Below are positions 3,194 to 35,242 of a stretch of DNA of 64,000 nucleotides, one piece after another. Under the pieces are notes generated by a model. The model searched no databases and was not told where the DNA came from. It was given only the letters and a program-made list of their open reading frames with translations. The stretch covers positions 6,162,501 to 6,226,500 of the forward strand of contig NZ_CP089979.1 of the NCBI RefSeq assembly GCF_021389935.1. Reading direction: 5' to 3'. How positions within the stretch are numbered: the stretch's first letter is position 1; the number at the start of each line of letters is the position of its first letter. The DNA is from Fulvivirga ligni (GTDB lineage: Bacteria > Bacteroidota > Bacteroidia > Cytophagales > Cyclobacteriaceae). Both the position numbers and the translations under genes were made by a program.

Positions 3194-4460
3194 CATAGAG
3201 CAGTTCTCAAAAAAAATCTATCTCATACTGACCATAATTATGGCCATAAAGATAGCCGGTTTCTTCACTTGGAGTGAGAATGTGGCTATCACCAGGGTTT
3301 TTAAGGTCTTTAGTAGGATAGCTATGACTATAGCTGCCTATTATGTTTTCAAATACATCATTAAAAAAGGAGCCGTAGACTCATATAAGTGGGATAACGT
3401 TTTTGCTCCTCTGTTATACGGCGGATATTTATTGCTTGGTTTCACCTCATTTATGTGGTCCACCAAGCCCAGCCACAGTTCTCTACAGTGGTTCATGGAT
3501 CTTGAAAGCTTCGTTTTTTGCTATTATTTCATGAAGAGCTTTGAGCTACTTGATATATTTTTCCCAAAGGCCAATGTTAAATTCTATCATATTTTGGCCA
3601 ACGCTTCTTTCCTTATCATCCTCATTTTCATTATTGGATTGATGATAGCTCCCGATGAGTTTTACCGCATGACTCACGGAGGTGAAGAAGCAAGATTGGG
3701 AGGTTATATGATGAACCCCAACGAACTTGGAATGCTCTGCGTAGTAAGCATTTGCTGTTACATATTCAATTTATATCGAAACCACAGAAAAGTATGGACC
3801 ATCATCAAAATTTTATTGGTTCTATACGCTCTGATATTAACTGGTTCAAGATCTTCCATGATTGGCTTTCTGCTGGTAGTGTTCTTCCATATTCGCCAAT
3901 CTGATAATATCAAGTTAAAGCTTGCCATTAATGTAGGTGCCGTATTCTCCATACCAGTAATTGTCCAAACCATTTTCATTAAGCAAGGTGATGTTGAGGA
4001 GGTTCTTAGTATGACGGGTCGCTTGCCTTTCTGGACCGCTCTCTTAAACGAAGGCCTTCCTCGCGAGCCCTGGTTTGGTTTCGGCTTTATGCGTATTGCC
4101 TACAAAGATTATTTTAAAGGCGTTCATACCTATGCCGGACAAATGACTCATAACACCTTCATACAAGTAGTTATGAATTTGGGTTTTGTAGGTTTCGGGC
4201 TGGTTCTATTACAAATGATTGCCACCATTAGGGGCTTTTTAAATGTAGATGACAAGGAGAAAAAATTAATGCTTTTAGGCGTCCTCATTCCTATAATCAT
4301 TAATTCATTCACTGAGTTTGGCATATTTGGAGAAACAAATTATGGCATCCTATTCTACCAGCTACTAATATTTGGAATATCTTTTCGCTATCACCCTATT
4401 CTTTCCCGCTCTGAAAGATTATTTCTGAGGCGCCGGAGGCCTGACTTTGTTATTCCATAA
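3177..4460 (+). CDS. O-antigen polymerase/ligase-like membrane protein (Wzy/WaaL family)
   Basis: This 427-residue protein has 10 or more membrane helices and one large periplasmic loop. The segments LGGYMMNPNELGMLCVVSI, LTGSRSSMIGFLLVVFF and WFGFGFMRIAYKDY, with a histidine-containing loop (GQMTHNTFIQVVMNLGF), match the Wzy_C/O-antigen ligase pattern, including the conserved arginine of GSRSS and histidine of THN. It overlaps the preceding glycosyltransferase by 17 bases. With the Wzx and Wzz-like genes beside it, the best reading is the polymerase of a Wzy-dependent capsule/EPS pathway; a ligase role is the alternative. Confidence 0.85.
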   Translation: MQKQLDIEQFSKKIYLILTIIMAIKIAGFFTWSENVAITRVFKVFSRIAMTIAAYYVFKYIIKKGAVDSYKWDNVFAPLLYGGYLLLGFTSFMWSTKPSHSSLQWFMDLESFVFCYYFMKSFELLDIFFPKANVKFYHILANASFLIILIFIIGLMIAPDEFYRMTHGGEEARLGGYMMNPNELGMLCVVSICCYIFNLYRNHRKVWTIIKILLVLYALILTGSRSSMIGFLLVVFFHIRQSDNIKLKLAINVGAVFSIPVIVQTIFIKQGDVEEVLSMTGRLPFWTALLNEGLPREPWFGFGFMRIAYKDYFKGVHTYAGQMTHNTFIQVVMNLGFVGFGLVLLQMIATIRGFLNVDDKEKKLMLLGVLIPIIINSFTEFGIFGETNYGILFYQLLIFGISFRYHPILSRSERLFLRRRRPDFVIP

Positions 4461-28854: not shown

Positions 28855-29775
28855 ATGAAAACGCTACACTACTACCTGGCCTCAGCCATAGCTTTGGCCA
28901 CTATTTCCTCATGCTCACAAGAGGCCGTTCAACCTGAGACAATTTCCTATGAAAGTCAGCTTACTTTAACCAATCAGGAGAATTTAGAATTGCTTAAATC
29001 CGATGTTAGCCAATCAGCTTCCATTACTGTTAGCAATGAATCTCAACTTAGAAGCGCCATTGGAAGTGCCTCTCCCGGAGACGTTATTCGTGTGAATGGA
29101 ACCATAAGACTAACGCGGACATTGGAGCTAGCCAGAAGCGGTAACTCCGGCAGCAAGATCAACTTCACTGGTGGCACCTTAGACTGTTCCGGCCTATCCT
29201 CTGGCTGGGGCGTAAAGGTCAATGGCAGCTACTGGAACATCAGTTATATGACCATCAAAAATGCTCCTGACTGTGGACTGGTATTTCAACATGGTGGATA
29301 TAACTGGGTTTATCAGGTAATAACCCATGGAAATGGAGATTCCGGGCTGCAAATTTATAATGGCTCTCACCACAATAGCATTAATTATTGCACTTCATAT
29401 AATAACTATGATGTGGCCAATGGCGGTGAAAATGCCGATGGTTTTGCCTGTAAACTTTCTGCTGGTGCCGGCAATCAGTTTGATAATTGCTGGGCAGAAA
29501 ACAATTCTGACGATGGCTGGGATTTATACGGACAGCCTTACACAGTTAAAATCACCAATTGCACAGCCAAAAATAATGGCTACGGCACCAACGGTGATGG
29601 TAACGGATTTAAGCTAGGCAGCGCCGGCCAGAATGTACCACACACAGTGACTAATTGTACCTCTGGTAATAACCTGGGGGCCGGTTATGATGGTAACGGT
29701 AATACAGGGCACATCACAACTACCGGAAGCGGCGGATACGGCAATGGAAAAGGTCTCTGGTTAAGAATTTATTGA
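28855..29775 (+). CDS. PL9-like right-handed beta-helix lipoprotein (putative pectate lyase)
   Basis: The signal peptide ends in the lipobox ISSC (Cys about residue 20), so the protein is a lipoprotein. The mature part is a parallel beta-helix: an N-terminal cap (ESQLRSAIGSASPGDVIRV), a lyase-like core with NGGENADGFACKLSAGAGN, and ENNSDDGWDLYGQPYTVKI. The ENADGFA and NSDDGWDLY motifs are those of family 9 polysaccharide lyases, which use calcium and a catalytic lysine; a lysine (FACK) is present. At 306 residues it is shorter than most PL9 catalytic domains. The substrate may be pectin or another uronate polymer. A terminator follows. Confidence 0.8.
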   Translation: MKTLHYYLASAIALATISSCSQEAVQPETISYESQLTLTNQENLELLKSDVSQSASITVSNESQLRSAIGSASPGDVIRVNGTIRLTRTLELARSGNSGSKINFTGGTLDCSGLSSGWGVKVNGSYWNISYMTIKNAPDCGLVFQHGGYNWVYQVITHGNGDSGLQIYNGSHHNSINYCTSYNNYDVANGGENADGFACKLSAGAGNQFDNCWAENNSDDGWDLYGQPYTVKITNCTAKNNGYGTNGDGNGFKLGSAGQNVPHTVTNCTSGNNLGAGYDGNGNTGHITTTGSGGYGNGKGLWLRIY

Positions 29776-29810
29776 AAGTTCAACTAAGTTTCATATTCAA
29801 GTTTTAGTTT

Positions 29811-29845
29811 AAAAAGCAGGTCAACTCCAGTTGATCTGCTTTTTA
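29811..29845 (+). terminator. Terminator of the PL9-like gene
   Basis: AAAAGCAGGTCAACT/AGTTGATCTGCTTTT stem with a short loop and a following T-rich run. Confidence 0.85.
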
Positions 29846-29993: not shown

Positions 29994-31358
29994 ATGAAAA
30001 AAATGCCATACCTCCATTACCTGCTCTGGGTATGCGTGGGAGTCTACACCTTATGGATATACTCCTGCAATCCTAAGCCTGGTAATAATGAAACCACCAC
30101 AAATGACAGTACTGAAAGTTTAACCAGCCACGCGATGGTTCAGACTGCCTCATTCCCCAACGGAAATGATACTAGTTGTGTAGCTCCAGACGAATGGTTT
30201 AGCGGCCCTGTTCCCGAACCAGATCCTACCATTTTCCCAGAAGATCCGTCTAATTGCGATTTCCACATTATCTCCTGGCAATACTTCCTTTGGCTCACAG
30301 AGAAAGTCAATGGCAAGCTCCGCTTTGAGACCATGTTTACCGATAAATCTATTACACCTGAAACCAAAAATGACACTAATCAGGAGTTGGATATTGTAGA
30401 ACAAGCCTTATCCAAAGGAATACTAATAGATTTAAATGGAAGAGCAGTGTATAGTAACATCATTATTAATGACATCTATAGAGACTGGATCATTGACAAC
30501 CATCTGTACAATGCTGACAGCCTGGCCAATTTTGATCCCAAGGCCGACTTCCCTGTAGGATCGCTATCAATAAAAACTAGCTGGAAGATCGTACAACCAG
30601 GGGAGGACACCTCGAATTTGTACACTACCAAAAAGAAAATTCAACTTCTTACCATGGTAGGTGGCGAACCAAGAATACCAGATAACCCTAAAACTGACAG
30701 TGCAGAGGTTGCCCTCATTGGCCTGCATATAGCTGTGGTAGTTAAAGGGCACCCTGAATTTGTATGGGCTACTTTTGAATTTGATGACAATGCCCCTAAT
30801 TTCCAACCTCATCAGGCTATGGATAGTCCTGTGTCTGATAAAGACTGGCTTCTTTACACTGCTAAAACAGTGGCACAAAAAACTAATGCCAACAATGCTC
30901 AAATTCTAAAATTTAAGGATGAAAGCAAGCAACTATTAACACCGGTTACCCAGGTAGCCCGCCAGTATGTAAATGGAGGGGGAGACAGTACTAACCAAAA
31001 TAATATTGAACACCTTAACACTAACATAAAAGATCAACTAGCCAATACCACAAACTCTCTGTGGAGTAACTACTTCGAGGTAGGAGCTATTTGGTTCAAT
31101 ACCACCAAAGGTACACTTGCGCCTGATTGGTCTCCTAACGTTGACAGTGTGATGGTAACAGGGTCATTAAGACTATCCAACTCTACCATCGAAACCTTTA
31201 CTCAAAAGGTGATCAGCCAGAATGAATGCTTTAGCTGTCATAATACCATGACCTTCTTTGCTGATGACAAGCAACCACTTCCTGGTAAAAATCTGAGTAC
31301 CAGTCATATTCTTTTAAAAAGATATCAAGGCGGTGGCCAGGTAAAACGTGGCCAATAA
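29994..31358 (+). CDS. Lipoprotein with a single CXXCH haem-c motif, partner of the CTQ oxidase
   Basis: A 454-residue protein with an N-terminal hydrophobic segment ending in a lipobox-like IYSC. Most of the sequence matches no family I recognise. Near the C-terminus is C412-F-S-C415-H416 (QNECFSCHNTMTFF), the form of a covalent haem c site, with methionine M419 and a later histidine (STSHILL) as possible ligands. The segment WATFEFDDNAPNFQPH is also distinctive. Only 27 bases separate it from the LodA-like gene, so it is almost certainly co-transcribed. I infer an outer- or inner-membrane anchored electron carrier or maturation partner. A CXXCH can also occur by chance, so haem binding is a hypothesis. 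Confidence 0.65.
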   Translation: MKKMPYLHYLLWVCVGVYTLWIYSCNPKPGNNETTTNDSTESLTSHAMVQTASFPNGNDTSCVAPDEWFSGPVPEPDPTIFPEDPSNCDFHIISWQYFLWLTEKVNGKLRFETMFTDKSITPETKNDTNQELDIVEQALSKGILIDLNGRAVYSNIIINDIYRDWIIDNHLYNADSLANFDPKADFPVGSLSIKTSWKIVQPGEDTSNLYTTKKKIQLLTMVGGEPRIPDNPKTDSAEVALIGLHIAVVVKGHPEFVWATFEFDDNAPNFQPHQAMDSPVSDKDWLLYTAKTVAQKTNANNAQILKFKDESKQLLTPVTQVARQYVNGGGDSTNQNNIEHLNTNIKDQLANTTNSLWSNYFEVGAIWFNTTKGTLAPDWSPNVDSVMVTGSLRLSNSTIETFTQKVISQNECFSCHNTMTFFADDKQPLPGKNLSTSHILLKRYQGGGQVKRGQ

Positions 31359-31385
31359 TTTACAATTCCTAAACATCATATTATC

Positions 31386-33497
31386 ATGTCAGAAACCTCT
31401 TTAAGAATACACCCTGCTATTGGCATGGCCAGAGTAGGCAACAGTACTGAATATTATCTGGGGCCCGAAACGATGGCCGCTCACCCTCAGGAAGGCTCAG
31501 ATACCACCGGGGGCTTACCCATAAAACCCAACACTGAAAGCACCACCATTACCAGCGGCGACCTGAGAGATGGCCAGGGTAGACTGAAACGCCAGGCCGC
31601 AAGATTTAAGATTTATCAATATGCTAACTCCCCCAGCACTCTAAGCTACCCTTCTACACCGGGTGAAGAAGTTAAAATTGGCTCAGTGGTAGATGGAAAA
31701 AAGGTAAGTAATATCATCTGGACCGCTCATTTGGCCAACAAAAAAGCTAATTGTTGGATGATAGATGAAACTGCCAATAAAGGTATTCTACTATATGAAA
31801 ATGGTAAAACGCCACCCTTGAGAAATCCATCATTTGGATCTGACCCCGGCAGCACCAATAGGCTTCAGAAGCTCATCATTGATGCTGGCCCCCGGGCTAT
31901 CAACAGTGCCAATGGCTCTTCACCAGTGAAATTTGATAATAAAACCACAGCATCCTACCTGAACACTTCATCGGGGAAGATTACAGAGGTTCCTAATTAT
32001 CCTATTCAATTTCCTGCGTCTAGCGGTTCTGAAAGTGATGGGAGCACCCCAATTGACTATTTAGGTGAGCTATTGACCGATGAGCAAGGTAGGCTTCTAG
32101 TGCTCGGCGGTCATGGACTGGCCTGTGGTTTTAACAATGAAGGGCAATTTGACGCCAGCCAGTCATTATGTGCTGATGTAGACAACAATAACTGGCTGGA
32201 CGACACCTCTGACGGACCAGTTACTGCCACATTGGTTTTTGAAGATGGTACTCAACATGTAATTCCCGGTAGTGCCTGGGTAGTTGTTACTGACCCCGCG
32301 TATGCTCCACAGACCCTCAACGTTGTGAGTCTTTGGGATGATGTATATAACACCTGGTTAGAAAATTTCAATTTACAACCCGAAGTATATAGCGGTTCTT
32401 ATAATCAGAACTATCAACCTGATTTTAAGGAAGATGTGTTTCCCGTACTCAATGCAGCCCACATGCAGCGATGGAATACGAATCTTCCGGATCAGGCCGT
32501 GACGGCTCACAAAAGCATGATGAATTTCACGGAACAACCGCCGAAGATGAACATCATGTCTTTCATTAGAAAAGTGGATGGGAGTCAAAATGAAAAAGGG
32601 TCACCTTTAATGCCGCTCTCTCTTGGTGATGCTGACCAATCTTTTCTCACCATATCCCATCAGCAGTACTTTTTTATGGAACAATGGACCAAAGGAAAAT
32701 GTGTTGGCGCTACGCCTGTGAAACTCGGTGCCGGTGAGCAACTGGACAAGACCATTCTGGTGAATTGTCTTGGGGGAAGATTTAGTCCGGGCATAGATAT
32801 GACCTTCATTGTAAGAGACACCCATTTGTACAACAGTAACTGGCACGATCCAAACATTGGCCCTTTTAGGATAAACGCAGAACCACTGGATTATGCTAGT
32901 GCCACAAAAGATCAGCCTTTTCTTGGTGTAGGTTACACTCCTTTAAGGCCAGATCCTGTACAGCCGGGTGATATATGCAAGTTTATGGCTATACCCTGGC
33001 ATACTGATTATAACAGCTGCGCCACCCATACACCTGATCCTAATCCCGGGGGTAAGCTTACAAAAGAGAATGTTTATAGTGGGGAAGTAAATACCACGCT
33101 TTACTGGTCATGGCCTGCCCAGCGACCCGTGGCAGTCTACACTTTCAAGGACCTTTCAGCCAATGAAGGTAACTTAAAAAACACGATCCAACGATTTTCC
33201 GTCAGAGGGGAAGGCACCGCTGCCACTTCTCCCATGAATAATCCGGGCTGCCCTGTCTCCACAGATTTTGATACCGCAGCCATGAACGTTGGCCGCTATC
33301 AAAACAGGAAGAACATACTTACAGGATGGAGTAAAATTGGCACTGTAATTCAAGGTACCGCCATAGATGGCTACCCTGATAGCTATGATAAAGATTACTA
33401 TCTGGAAGTGCAGAGTGAATTTGAAAAGGATTATAGCAACCTGGTAATCCAGTGGCCTAATAATGTGGATGATAGTGTTCAACCCCCTGAAAATTAA
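31386..33497 (+). CDS. LodA/GoxA-family cysteine tryptophylquinone (CTQ) amino-acid oxidase
   Basis: A 703-residue enzyme without a signal peptide, as in known LodA-type proteins. It begins IHPAIGMARVGNSTEYYLGP, typical of the family. Conserved segments include YFFMEQWTKGKC, NCLGGRFSPGIDMTF, IPWHTDYNSC and YWSWPAQRP. By analogy to LodA, where D512, C516 and a downstream Trp form and support the cofactor, the candidates here are D541, C545 and W574 or W576. Such enzymes oxidatively deaminate lysine or glycine, releasing H2O2 and ammonia; the substrate here is not readable. The flavoprotein gene needed for CTQ formation follows 5 bases downstream. Confidence 0.9.
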   Translation: MSETSLRIHPAIGMARVGNSTEYYLGPETMAAHPQEGSDTTGGLPIKPNTESTTITSGDLRDGQGRLKRQAARFKIYQYANSPSTLSYPSTPGEEVKIGSVVDGKKVSNIIWTAHLANKKANCWMIDETANKGILLYENGKTPPLRNPSFGSDPGSTNRLQKLIIDAGPRAINSANGSSPVKFDNKTTASYLNTSSGKITEVPNYPIQFPASSGSESDGSTPIDYLGELLTDEQGRLLVLGGHGLACGFNNEGQFDASQSLCADVDNNNWLDDTSDGPVTATLVFEDGTQHVIPGSAWVVVTDPAYAPQTLNVVSLWDDVYNTWLENFNLQPEVYSGSYNQNYQPDFKEDVFPVLNAAHMQRWNTNLPDQAVTAHKSMMNFTEQPPKMNIMSFIRKVDGSQNEKGSPLMPLSLGDADQSFLTISHQQYFFMEQWTKGKCVGATPVKLGAGEQLDKTILVNCLGGRFSPGIDMTFIVRDTHLYNSNWHDPNIGPFRINAEPLDYASATKDQPFLGVGYTPLRPDPVQPGDICKFMAIPWHTDYNSCATHTPDPNPGGKLTKENVYSGEVNTTLYWSWPAQRPVAVYTFKDLSANEGNLKNTIQRFSVRGEGTAATSPMNNPGCPVSTDFDTAAMNVGRYQNRKNILTGWSKIGTVIQGTAIDGYPDSYDKDYYLEVQSEFEKDYSNLVIQWPNNVDDSVQPPEN

Positions 33498-33502
33498 TTA
33501 CA

Positions 33503-34636
33503 ATGACATTAAAGAAGATTGCAATCATTGGCGCAGGCCCCGCTGGGTGTGCCTGCGCCATTAGGTTATCTCAGATAACAAACTATAAAATCACTTTAAT
33601 AAGTGCCCCAGAGAAAGACTTCTATATTGGCGAATGTGTCCCTCCGGAAATAAAAAAGCCTCTGCTTACACTTAATATTTATAAGGCCTTTTTAAAAGAC
33701 AAACATATTCCCTCTTTCGGATCTTGCTCCTACTGGGGCAGTCAATATCCTGGCTACAATGATTCTATTATGAATCCTCATGGTCATGGCTGGCACTTGA
33801 ATAGAAAAAAGTTTAATCAACTTCTGATTCAAACCGCTGACAGTAAGAAAAATATTCAGTTAATTAAAAATTCTACTTTCAGAAAAACACTGGACAGCAG
33901 CACGCTCATTTACAAGGATCCTGACGGAGCTAACCGAACACTGTCTTATGACTTTATTATTGATGCCTCCGGTCCTAAAAGCATAGTTGCCAAGTATTTT
34001 GGCGAGACTCAGATTCATGACACACCACTAATATGTGTAGGCATGAAGTTTAAGCAGGAAAAACCAGCCTTACTATCACACCTCACACAAATAGAAGCTG
34101 TAAAACATGGCTGGTGGTACGCCACATCCCTTCCCAATCAAGAAGCGTTAGTGACCTTATTCACACATGCCAGTATCATAAAAAAATTACAACTGAACTC
34201 ATTCTTACCATGGCATAACCTACTTGAGGGCACTAGCACAGAGCATTGGTTAAAAGAATACCATTATTCTCCTTCGCAACATCATTTATTCATGTTTGCT
34301 GCCCATTCCTTCTGCCTCTCCTCCATACACGGACGCAATTGGTTGGCGGTTGGAGATGCTGCATCATGTTATGACCCCATTACTTCGAACGGTATTATCA
34401 AATCCATTACAGAAGGCATACGATCAGCAGAAATGCTTAGAAATGGAGATAGATACATGAAAAACCTTTACATACATGATCAAAATGTAAAAGCACGATA
34501 TGAACATTATCGGAACATGAGGTCATTATATTATAATCTGGAAAGACGGTGGCCAAATAGTGCTTTCTGGAAGATTATTCAAAACCCTGAAGAAGGTAAC
34601 TCAATCCAGGACTTTGCCATGAGCCATCAGCACTGA
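33503..34636 (+). CDS. LodB-like FAD-dependent flavoprotein (CTQ maturation)
   Basis: A 377-residue flavoprotein of the halogenase/monooxygenase type. The N-terminal FAD-binding motif is KIAIIGAGPAGCACAIRLS, and the second FAD motif is WLAVGDAASCYDPITSNGI. In the Marinomonas LodA system, LodB is needed to form the tryptophylquinone cofactor, most likely by hydroxylating tryptophan. Its position 5 bases after the LodA-like gene supports that role here. The C-terminal part (RNMRSLYYNLERRWPNSAFW) resembles LodB homologues as I recall them. It ends one base before the convergent regulator's stop codon. Confidence 0.88.
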   Translation: MTLKKIAIIGAGPAGCACAIRLSQITNYKITLISAPEKDFYIGECVPPEIKKPLLTLNIYKAFLKDKHIPSFGSCSYWGSQYPGYNDSIMNPHGHGWHLNRKKFNQLLIQTADSKKNIQLIKNSTFRKTLDSSTLIYKDPDGANRTLSYDFIIDASGPKSIVAKYFGETQIHDTPLICVGMKFKQEKPALLSHLTQIEAVKHGWWYATSLPNQEALVTLFTHASIIKKLQLNSFLPWHNLLEGTSTEHWLKEYHYSPSQHHLFMFAAHSFCLSSIHGRNWLAVGDAASCYDPITSNGIIKSITEGIRSAEMLRNGDRYMKNLYIHDQNVKARYEHYRNMRSLYYNLERRWPNSAFWKIIQNPEEGNSIQDFAMSHQH

Positions 34637-35242
34637 TTACCTACCTAAAAATGGAATGCCTGGAATATAACGGACTCTCATTTGCTGGTTAGATTTAACA
34701 ATGTTGATGATAATCAGCGTTAAATTATAAAGATACATTACCGCGAAGAATACGACCATAAAGAGCATACGCGGTCGGATTATGGATGAACTAATGTTTT
34801 GCTCTGACTCAAAGGCGTAAGCTATACTTGCCACAATAGCTGAATACCCAACAAAGAGCACCATTACCCAGGTGATCTGGAAGTTAAGAATCGATTTTGC
34901 AGTAGAATTAATACCTTTTATCTTGTCCTTCTTGGAGATCCACATAATAAGGGGCACCAGAATACCGAGAATCGGAAAAATAATAAAGGTAAGCGCCGCC
35001 AGATTAAGACTGGTAAGAAAGCCATTATTCTCTTCTACGGTCCAGTCCATGATTTCATCTGGTGCTACATCAAAAGCAGCTGCCAGCCTTTTTAAGGAAT
35101 CCCCTCGAGGTTCCGTCTCACCGTTTTCAATTCTCTGAATGGTTCGTAGACTCAACCCTGTTTTATCAGCCAATTCCTCCTGAGAAAACCCTTTTCTACT
35201 TCTTAAATTTTTAATTCTGAGAGCAAGTTCTTTATTCTTCAT
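34637..35242 (-). CDS. XRE-family regulator with C-terminal DUF4870-like membrane domain
   Basis: Residues 1-65 are a Cro/C1-type helix-turn-helix (LRSRKGFSQEELADKTGLSL, TIQRIENGETEPRGDSLKRL). After a short linker come four hydrophobic segments at about 75-195 (LTFIIFPILGILVPLIMWIS, ILNFQITWVMVLFVG and so on) that match DUF4870. This makes a membrane-tethered transcription factor, a type common in Bacteroidota. It converges on the CTQ-oxidase operon with a gap of zero bases; whether it controls that operon cannot be judged. Its target is unknown. Confidence 0.9.
   Translation of the reverse strand: MKNKELALRIKNLRSRKGFSQEELADKTGLSLRTIQRIENGETEPRGDSLKRLAAAFDVAPDEIMDWTVEENNGFLTSLNLAALTFIIFPILGILVPLIMWISKKDKIKGINSTAKSILNFQITWVMVLFVGYSAIVASIAYAFESEQNISSSIIRPRMLFMVVFFAVMYLYNLTLIIINIVKSNQQMRVRYIPGIPFLGR

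Follow-up and report, generated by a model that had tools for sequence, protein, structure and literature searches.

Described CTQ enzymes and their haem partners

The usual description of LodA-type enzymes is that of oxidases which simply make H2O2 and have LodB as their maturation protein. In LodA, the L-lysine 6-oxidase of Marinomonas mediterranea, the CTQ residues are C516 and W581 (PMC4417212). Operons of the family include the tyrosinase/multicopper oxidase/small gene type of group ID, the catalase fusions of group III and fungal operons with PF12902 genes, and iron or haem partners of LodA relatives occur as catalase-domain and pfam14518 fusions and, in fungi, as ferritin-like neighbours (PMC4417212). 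CTQ is combined with haem c in the quinohaemoprotein amine dehydrogenase QHNDH, which in the account of PMC7876137 has two haems, carried by a di-haem alpha subunit, a beta subunit and a CTQ subunit of only about 9 kDa. Its qhp operon provides a flavoprotein maturase, the radical-SAM protein QhpD, the protease QhpE and the ABC transporter QhpF.

The locus described here shares with the group ID, group III and fungal operons a LodA-like gene, a LodB-like gene and an additional metal or haem redox protein. It differs from them in that this partner is a CXXCH protein. The upstream haem gene has no counterpart in the family survey, the main text of which uses neither "cytochrome" nor "lipoprotein" (PMC4417212), and our literature searches listed no report of a CXXCH protein as a LodA partner. 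The first-pass annotation had likewise known of no established haem-c lipoprotein partner. With QHNDH, the locus has in common that CTQ and a c-type haem motif are encoded together, and that a flavoprotein maturase is present (PMC7876137). However, family scans detected no QHNDH subunit, QhpD, QhpE or QhpF among its three genes, its haem-motif protein has one CXXCH in 454 aa, and its CTQ enzyme is a 703-aa protein of LodA fold. The closeness to quinohaemoprotein amine dehydrogenases that had been proposed earlier thus extends to CTQ and haem c in one operon, but not to the rest of the architecture.

The three-gene locus

The window, a stretch of 64,000 nucleotides from Fulvivirga ligni, contains the trio as open reading frames at 29994-31358, 31386-33497 and 33503-34636, all on the + strand and all where the first-pass annotation had placed them. 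The genes are separated by 27 nt (genes 1 and 2) and 5 nt (genes 2 and 3), and the next gene (34637-35242) lies on the opposite strand. Terminator-like consensus sites, such as the hairpin listed below, are no commoner in the region than in shuffled sequence (4 found, 4.8 expected). The features are as follows.

29810..29845, + strand: terminator-like hairpin in the interval that separates the trio from the beta-helix gene upstream (consensus match only)
29994..31358, + strand: exported haem-motif lipoprotein, 454 aa, with a probable P460/c'-beta-like core (sequence, alignments, predicted structure)
30066..30068, + strand: C25, probable lipid-anchored Cys, IYSC/N (sequence inspection)
30573..30575, + strand: K194 in FPVGSLSIK, invariant, at the position of the cytochrome P460 cross-link Lys (alignments; PMC11928373, Table 2)
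31077..31079, + strand: E362 (alignment of LodA-linked with other cytochromes)
31227..31241, + strand: CFSCH (C412-H416), haem c attachment motif (sequence, alignments)
31386..33497, + strand: LodA/GoxA-family CTQ enzyme, 703 aa (Pfam, profile alignment, Foldseek)
33000..33020, + strand: HTDYNSC, with H539, D541 (supporting Asp) and C545 (CTQ Cys) (alignments)
33111..33113, + strand: W576, CTQ Trp, paired with LodA W581 (profile alignment)
33503..34636, + strand: LodB-like flavoprotein, probable CTQ maturase (family scans)

The CTQ enzyme and its probable maturase

The product of gene 2 scores 187.7 bits against Pfam LodA_N (cut-off 26.3) and 130.4 bits against LodA_C (cut-off 25). It has the fold of LodA (Foldseek E 3.6e-35) at about 23% identity, and as in the LodA/LodB pair the LodB-like gene follows directly on the 3' side. 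A profile alignment with solved LodA (3weu/2ymw; E 1e-65) equates C516, D512 and W581 of LodA, with the D512 numbering taken from the aligned chain, with C545, D541 and W576, all of which are invariant across 40 aligned LodA rows. C545 and D541 had been named as cofactor cysteine and supporting residue, and the alignment bears this out. The tryptophan had been left between W574 and W576. As the alignment pairs W576 with LodA W581, W576 is the CTQ Trp and W574 can be dropped. The surrounding motifs differ, with PWHTDYNSC...YWSWP in place of PWQADFFNC...YWWP in LodA. Scores for the lysine 6-oxidase equivalog NF038172 (238.6 bits, cut-off 600) and for the glycine oxidase equivalog NF038173, GoxA (139.4 bits, cut-off 750), stay below threshold, and inspection of the enzyme revealed no signal peptide.

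Gene 3 had been annotated as a LodB-like flavoprotein. LodB is indeed the best of the three maturase families compared (NCBIfam LodB 231.6 bits, GoxB 177.1, QhpG 119.3), at a score below the LodB cut-off of 400.

The haem-motif lipoprotein

The CXXCH motif reported at C412/C415/H416 is present there as CFSCH. Its conservation among homologues, proposed earlier as a check, holds: it is kept in 79 of the 80 relatives retained by our scan, and the 80th is cut by its contig end. The motif is invariant in 65/65 aligned relatives and in 19/19 of a second, partly overlapping set. Because the mean column identities are only 25% and 22%, respectively, this invariance rules out a chance motif. Conservation of CXXCH, export as judged by eye and two matches to the cytochrome c assembly family PF01578 in the host genome are what is expected of a c-type haem protein, and the lipoprotein probably binds haem. 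Several proteobacterial relatives resemble, by eye, Sec-signal proteins instead of lipoproteins.

The lipoprotein had been said to have no recognised family. This is correct insofar as no Pfam or NCBIfam model exceeds its cut-off, but the core bears a likeness to cytochrome P460/c'-beta. A sequence search against solved structures found no homologue, and a profile search gave a single chance match (E 0.71). Pfam showed no match to MauG or bacterial cytochrome c peroxidase at E up to 1, and the protein has one CXXCH, against the two that MauG and cytochrome c peroxidase need. The Cytochrome_P460 model PF16694 scores 16.1 bits (cut-off 27). Among sub-threshold Pfam matches in the family it ranks first, with 15/65 members at E up to 0.1 (best E 0.0018); the next-commonest model is matched by 4 members. 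In the smaller set, just 2/19 members matched P460 at an E of 1 or less.

The predicted structure (pLDDT 87.1) was compared by Foldseek with 350,542 PDB chains. Cytochromes P460 or c'-beta, whose superfamily is marked by a five-stranded antiparallel beta fold, account for 5 of the top 8 matches (4 entries), the best being c'-beta 7s5o (E 0.075, probability 0.47). No match falls below E 0.05, and the P460-type matches have low TM-scores, with a maximum of 0.35 when normalised to target length. Whole-length alignment by hhalign to P460 was misplaced (probability 28). Trimmed profiles that include CXXCH did align the motifs, with 1/60 shuffles beating the observed score (32.2 vs 27.3). A profile alignment without CXXCH spans 16 columns and outscores all of 150 shuffles. 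In it, K194 falls at the cross-link site, which is occupied by Lys70 in NeP460 and by Phe61 in McCP-beta (PMC11928373, Table 2, and PDB alignments). The weak Pfam matches, the short profile alignment and the weak Foldseek matches together point to a P460/c'-beta-like core.

The haem protein thus resembles these cytochromes in having CXXCH near the C-terminus and an FPxGSxxxK strand with Lys at the cross-link position, which makes K194 a candidate for a haem cross-link. It differs from them in its length (454 aa, compared with 135-196 aa for solved P460 chains) and in sharing an operon with a CTQ enzyme. The P460 carboxylate position (NeP460 Glu96, McP460 Asp102) is apparently occupied by glycine: G243 faces McCP-beta Gly82 in an alignment by eye, as the hhalign alignment stops short of it. 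Oxidation of hydroxylamine is therefore not expected.

Distribution and specificity of the pairing

The haem-motif protein is here called the cytochrome. Among its 80 retained relatives, 44 are encoded directly 5' of LodA, with gaps of -4 to 106 nt; these come from Bacteroidota, Pseudomonadota and Verrucomicrobiota. LodB follows LodA in all 39 clade loci where the contig continues. When LodA genes were collected independently of the cytochrome, it accompanied 3/4 clade-type loci but only 2/33 other LodA loci, and 0/32 other LodA plasmid records. The pairing marks one LodA clade, that of the window. The proposal that the CXXCH lipoprotein is an operon partner accordingly stands for this branch. 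On the cytochrome tree, presence of LodA needs 3 changes, compared with 19.1 in shuffles, and LodA is present in all 39 rows of the window's cytochrome clade. A single cytochrome lineage does not account for all pairs, as two loci with clade-type LodA (L080 and L084) have cytochromes outside the 39-row set. In the one clade-type locus seen without the cytochrome, a ferritin-like PF12902 gene stands in its place. Comparison of the loci shows the trio to be a conserved unit of one LodA-type CTQ branch and a predicted exported CXXCH protein.

The lipoprotein is not a partner of LodA only. In a class draw of cytochrome loci, LodA was nearby in 3/17 and absent from the neighbourhood in 14/17, and in the wide family 33/78 assessable loci are apart from LodA. 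The earlier concern that the lipoprotein might occur mostly away from LodA thus applies to the wide family, whereas the clade of the window protein is free of it. Stand-alone cytochrome loci recur in Flavobacterium and Pseudoalteromonas. One constant alternative partner of stand-alone loci was not found, and neighbours vary. Minor recurring neighbours at stand-alone loci are an unnamed family of 586-712 aa (L028, L029, L031); others are proteins that start with a PRLHFSG-like stretch (L025, and L083 by eye), ferritin-like PF12902 proteins (L083, L097) and tyrosinase-LodA operons (L033, L035). Distant relatives of the cytochrome are found in the tyrosinase-LodA loci L033, L035 and L183, and are absent from L176 and L196.

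E362 is present in 36/40 LodA-linked cytochromes and in 0/23 others (L080 and L104 left out). H539 of LodA, close to the cofactor residues, is found in 42/43 rows of the LodA clade and in 1/28 other LodA rows, with Gln at this position in most other LodA groups. The association of H539 with the cytochrome is suggestive only. The clade member that lacks the cytochrome (L193) has Gln, but a strict rule is broken by L181, where His occurs in a cytochrome-less locus outside the clade, and by the tyrosinase-type rows with cytochrome (L033, L035, L183), which have Gln.

Discussion

Recurrence of the trio in three phyla suggests a working partnership between the haem protein and one LodA branch. We prefer, tentatively and at somewhat less than an even chance, a model in which H2O2 made by LodA is used by the haem protein. 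LodB would mature the CTQ of the LodA-like enzyme, as we infer from the family relationships, and the mature enzyme would oxidise an amine or amino acid and, by analogy with LodA and GoxA, release H2O2 in the envelope or extracellularly. H2O2 production by the window's LodA clade is an assumption. The envelope-held haem protein would react with the H2O2, as a peroxidase or a peroxide-removing partner; alternatively, the peroxide could drive haem-lysine cross-linking at K194. The conserved operon, its clade specificity and the invariant CXXCH count in favour of this model, as do the P460-like signals of the core in combination with the reactions of this fold with peroxide: according to PMC11928373, NeCP-beta behaves like a peroxidase, and formation of the P460 cross-link depends on peroxide. 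The other iron or haem partners of LodA relatives, and the PF12902 gene that replaces the cytochrome, also speak for it. The weak Pfam and Foldseek scores, the 16-column alignment and the 454-aa size count against it, and so do the many cytochrome relatives without a LodA neighbour. Moreover, with an exported cytochrome and a LodA that lacks a recognisable signal peptide, the two proteins may not meet.

The haem protein could instead, as the first-pass annotation had suggested, take the CTQ electrons and pass them to a respiratory carrier, so that the pair would amount to a quinohaemoprotein amine dehydrogenase built on the LodA fold. The conserved operon with its haem c motif, the QHNDH precedent of CTQ with haem c (PMC7876137) and the LodA clade's own near-cofactor motif with H539 agree with this possibility, which the present data nevertheless do not support and which we consider unlikely. 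The wild-type members of the P460/c'-beta fold that are listed in PMC11928373 have low potentials (-205 to -424 mV) and bind ligands at an open site. Such a haem therefore looks like a poor acceptor from the quinone, an argument that concerns the haem side only, as a literature search yielded no CTQ potential. If the core is P460/c'-beta-like, its haem would more probably react with ligands or peroxide than simply accept electrons. There is also only a single haem motif, LodA and cytochrome appear to begin in different compartments, and no carrier is evident, since beyond the trio no gene family occurs in more than 9 of 97 clustered loci (crude ORF calls).

A function in maturation, in which the haem protein would act like MauG and, besides LodB, complete the CTQ of the exported enzyme, would have parallels in di-haem MauG, which takes part in TTQ formation, and in the QHNDH alpha-subunit haems, which have been proposed for the last CTQ oxidation (both PMC7876137). 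It appears improbable in view of the one CXXCH, compared with two haems in MauG, and because the cytochrome is absent from one clade member and from 31/33 LodA loci outside the clade, while LodB is present in 30/32 of those outside loci that were tested. Finally, the link may be loose, the protein being a sensor, a scavenger or a structural envelope protein of many systems that is paired with LodA by co-regulation, for example in oxidative or nitrosative stress, with no shared reaction. The frequent separation of the wide family from LodA, the recurrent stand-alone loci and the gas binding proposed for c'-beta (PMC11928373) fit such a role. Yet gene order is constant and spacing near zero across three phyla, and the LodA label changes far less often on the cytochrome tree than in shuffles, so that a loose link is quite unlikely.

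LodA-type enzymes are usually portrayed as peroxide producers, and a conserved haem-motif partner over three phyla suggests that the window's LodA branch works differently. Strains and residues for testing are now defined: culturable carriers include Fulvivirga sediminis, Roseivirga ehrenbergii and Marinimicrobium agarilyticum, and the residues are K194, E362 and CFSCH in the haem protein and H539 in LodA. If the haem protein is P460-like, the P460/c'-beta fold, known from solved chains of modest size, would also occur in a family of large envelope proteins, and the locus would be a possible case of a haem of the peroxide-matured type beside a likely peroxide source. In a more far-reaching version, which we regard as a long shot, the pair would be self-supplying: peroxide from LodA would both build the K194 haem cross-link of the partner and drive its reaction, and the partner would represent a large unnamed P460/c'-beta branch. 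If true, CTQ would be joined within one enzyme pair by a second protein-derived redox cofactor, a cross-linked P460 haem.

The gene trio

The Fulvivirga ligni genome is a single contig of 6.52 Mb that contains the window. The trio and its surroundings are arranged as follows.

28855-29775: beta-helix protein (right-handed, PF13229), next to the trio on its upstream side with the hairpin in between; matched by PelX/PelN pectate-lyase models far under their cut-offs
29810-29845: terminator-like hairpin before the trio (consensus match only)
29994-31358, + strand: gene 1, CXXCH lipoprotein of 454 residues (the haem protein)
31386-33497, + strand: gene 2, LodA/GoxA-family CTQ enzyme (LodA)
33503-34636, + strand: gene 3, LodB-like flavoprotein
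34637-35242, - strand: predicted regulator (HTH_3 domain, then DUF4870), convergent to the LodB gene, with no gap between it and the LodB stop codon

Open reading frames spaced by 27 nt (genes 1 and 2) and 5 nt (genes 2 and 3) bear out the gene positions of the first-pass annotation, and the CXXCH motif that it claimed is present as C412-F-S-C415-H416. The nearest named relative at the locus is Fulvivirga sediminis (81% identity for the cytochrome, 88% for LodA). Gene 2 had been called LodA/GoxA-type, in agreement with LodA_N and LodA_C matches above the Pfam cut-offs; among solved structures, its AlphaFold2 model (pLDDT 84.6) matches LodA first and GoxA second. In a profile alignment, C516, D512 and W581 of solved LodA pair with C545, D541 and W576, which upholds the proposed cysteine and aspartate and settles the choice between W574 and W576 for the latter. 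For gene 3, also annotated as LodB-like, the closest NCBIfam model is the LodB maturase. No relevant NCBIfam model matches gene 1, and genes 2 and 3 fall short of the equivalog cut-offs. Because of these cut-offs, the gene 2 enzyme is, judged from its sequence, a LodA/GoxA family member, but neither LodA nor GoxA proper.

Association of the haem gene with LodA

The haem protein occurs in 16 of 295 genomes of the class, the window's own included. At further loci from this draw, CXXCH is present in 17/17 and LodA is nearby in only 3/17. A scan of GTDB genome contigs found 479 stretches encoding relatives, of which the best 80 were kept without regard to LodA (the two sets overlap, L095/L112 being taken, from their lengths, as the same contigs as L022/L023). 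The motif is conserved in 79 of the best 80, the remaining locus, L097, ending at a contig edge. LodA is present at 45 of the 80, a fraction valid for near relatives only, since these are the best-scoring of the 479; 2 of the 35 loci without LodA (L046, L097) run into a contig end and cannot be judged. In 44 of the 45, LodA starts -4 to 106 nt after the end of the haem gene on the same strand, followed by LodB in all 39 loci whose contig continues. The other, L104, has a LodA of a different kind (26% identical) after an 807-nt gap.

In a quick tree of 65 haem proteins, the window falls within a 39-row set (SH-aLRT 95) with LodA in every row, which covers Bacteroidota, alpha-, beta- and gammaproteobacteria, and Verrucomicrobiota. 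The LodA label requires 3 changes on this tree, versus 19.1 in shuffles. The LodA-linked haem proteins of L080 and L084 lie outside the set. A lipoprotein found mostly away from LodA, which the first-pass annotation had held to speak against a partnership, is thus what the class draw gives (3/17), whereas the window's own set (39/39) contradicts it.

Among 71 LodA-like proteins, a quick tree puts the partnered enzymes in one 43-row set (SH-aLRT 100), with the haem gene at 42 of the 43; the haem-linked enzymes of L033, L035 and L183 belong to the tyrosinase-type set. The clade has a cofactor motif of its own: WSWP is found in all 43 clade rows and PWHTDYNSC in 41, the exceptions being L049 (Met for Thr) and L193 (Gln for His). 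His539 is present in 42/43 clade rows versus 1/28 others, where Gln is usual, and the clade member without the haem gene (L193) carries Gln at this position, a single case. A strict rule linking His539 to the haem gene fails at L181, which has His, lacks the haem gene and lies outside the clade.

For the reverse comparison, LodA genes were drawn from 395 genomes of the phylum, 369 Gammaproteobacteria, 385 Alphaproteobacteria and 72,556 plasmids; neither the window nor the LodA used to pick the two centre genomes is counted. Four genes of the window's clade were obtained, three with the haem gene. It lies directly upstream in genome G793 and in the Pseudoalteromonas xiamenensis and Xanthomonas sacchari plasmid records, where it is labelled 'hypothetical protein'. 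In G1142 (locus L193), no haem gene adjoins LodA, and no family member was found in the genome as available. Its place directly upstream is taken by a PF12902 ferritin-like gene (3233-4192, - strand, E 3.1e-33); in fungi, PF12902 genes close to LodA have been reported by the LodA family survey (PMC4417212). At LodA loci of other groups, a distant haem-protein relative occurs in 2/33 (L183 and L033, with near-identical LodA genes, both in tyrosinase operons). To make up the 33, L033 was added to the 32 loci that remain once L174, L193 and L208 (weak) are set aside; among them are L207, which is the second LodA in a centre genome, and some loci on short contigs. In the other LodA plasmid records, 0/32 have a haem-gene match beside LodA; in two of them a match lies at a distance, about 176 and 208 kb from it. 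At the level of gene neighbourhoods, these comparisons show the pairing of haem gene and LodA and its specificity for the clade.

Relatives of the haem protein also stand in other settings. In the tyrosinase-LodA operons, the distant relative follows LodB in L033 (8134-15772) and L183 (2909-10604), which have a small gene (147-158 residues) between LodA and LodB, and lies between LodA and LodB in L035 (3489-10615). In three genomes, a family of 586-712 residues without Pfam match, sharing the stretches DEYCE and FTCENPEY, is encoded directly upstream of relatives (L028:9645-11780, L029:9519-11276, L031:4833-6911) and is possibly another enzyme partner. Proteins of 616-679 residues with PRLHFSG-like starts (the two loci judged alike by eye only), also without Pfam match, adjoin relatives in L025 (9726-13704) and L083 (5933-12518), the latter with a PF12902 ferritin-like gene. 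L024 (8486-11479) has a tandem pair of family lipoprotein genes (CFSCH, CMSCH), with no LodA nearby.

Family and fold of the haem protein

The window protein has no Pfam match above cut-off, and none of 65 family members has an NCBIfam match (E up to 0.01). Three of the 65 probably carry an added carbohydrate-binding domain, with a match to PF12151 (mannan-binding protein MVL; E 9.7e-14 at best). The commonest sub-threshold Pfam match is Cytochrome_P460 (15/65, best E 0.0018; next family 4), seen in only 2/19 of the first haem-protein set. The AlphaFold2 model (pLDDT 87.1, pTM 0.84) has no Foldseek match with E < 0.001 among 350,542 chains; the best is the Nitrosomonas europaea cytochrome c'-beta (E 0.075, probability 0.47), and P460 or c'-beta accounts for 5 of the top 8 (4 entries), with low TM-scores. 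When the family was compared with 20 P460 proteins by profile, the CXXCH region being cut from both, FPVGSLSIK194 aligned on the P460 strand FPxGSxxVK (16 columns, score 26.7; best of 150 column shuffles 20.8). As these three weak lines agree, the haem protein is probably a much enlarged member of the P460/c'-beta superfamily; haem binding and a P460-like fold are what we infer.

By this alignment, K194, invariant like the haem motif (65/65 and 19/19 aligned rows), is at the position of the haem-cross-linking lysine of P460, and may itself be cross-linked. Equivalent positions, according to the review, are NeP460 Lys70, McP460 Lys78, NsP460 Lys106 and McCP-beta Phe61 (PMC11928373, Table 2), and F61V entries change exactly the K194-aligned column in PDB alignments. 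By eye, and outside the profile alignment span, G243 occupies the place of the catalytic carboxylate (McCP-beta Gly82), a resemblance to fold members that do not oxidise hydroxylamine. Export signals, also judged by eye, are a lipobox in the window protein and several relatives, and Sec-type signals in several proteobacterial relatives. The host genome has 2 matches to PF01578 (cytochrome c assembly).

What the pair may do

A search of literature mostly outside the subscription journals found no paper on a LodA partner of the haem c or P460-like kind. Two papers there contain 'P460' together with 'tryptophylquinone', the second term solely in titles of references on TTQ. The main text of the family survey (PMC4417212) contains 'cytochrome' and 'lipoprotein' 0 times each; its associations are tyrosinase, multicopper oxidase, small-gene, catalase, pfam14518, vWA and ferritin-like.

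The first-pass annotation proposed that the haem protein, if haem is bound, could take electrons from LodA for a respiratory carrier. We consider this unlikely. A plain carrier fits less well than peroxide use with what the review says of the fold (PMC11928373): in the wild-type members that it lists, potentials run from -205 to -424 mV and the ligand site is open; NeCP-beta is described as peroxidase-like; and P460 cross-link formation uses peroxide, with similar signs in the McCP-beta Phe61Lys mutant. Any model of direct contact, with either role, is weighed down by the compartments, which by eye appear to differ: LodA lacks a visible signal peptide and the haem protein has an export signal. 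LodA and GoxA are described as releasing H2O2, and some family enzymes as extracellular (PMC4699246, PMC3948610); in other branches the enzyme is fused to a domain of catalase type or an iron redox domain, or has ferritin-like neighbours (PMC4417212). Because of this H2O2 production, such partners elsewhere and the ferritin-like gene at L193, together with the properties of the fold, we prefer peroxide use over a plain carrier. Tentatively, and on circumstantial evidence, the haem protein would deal with, or use, peroxide presumably made by LodA.
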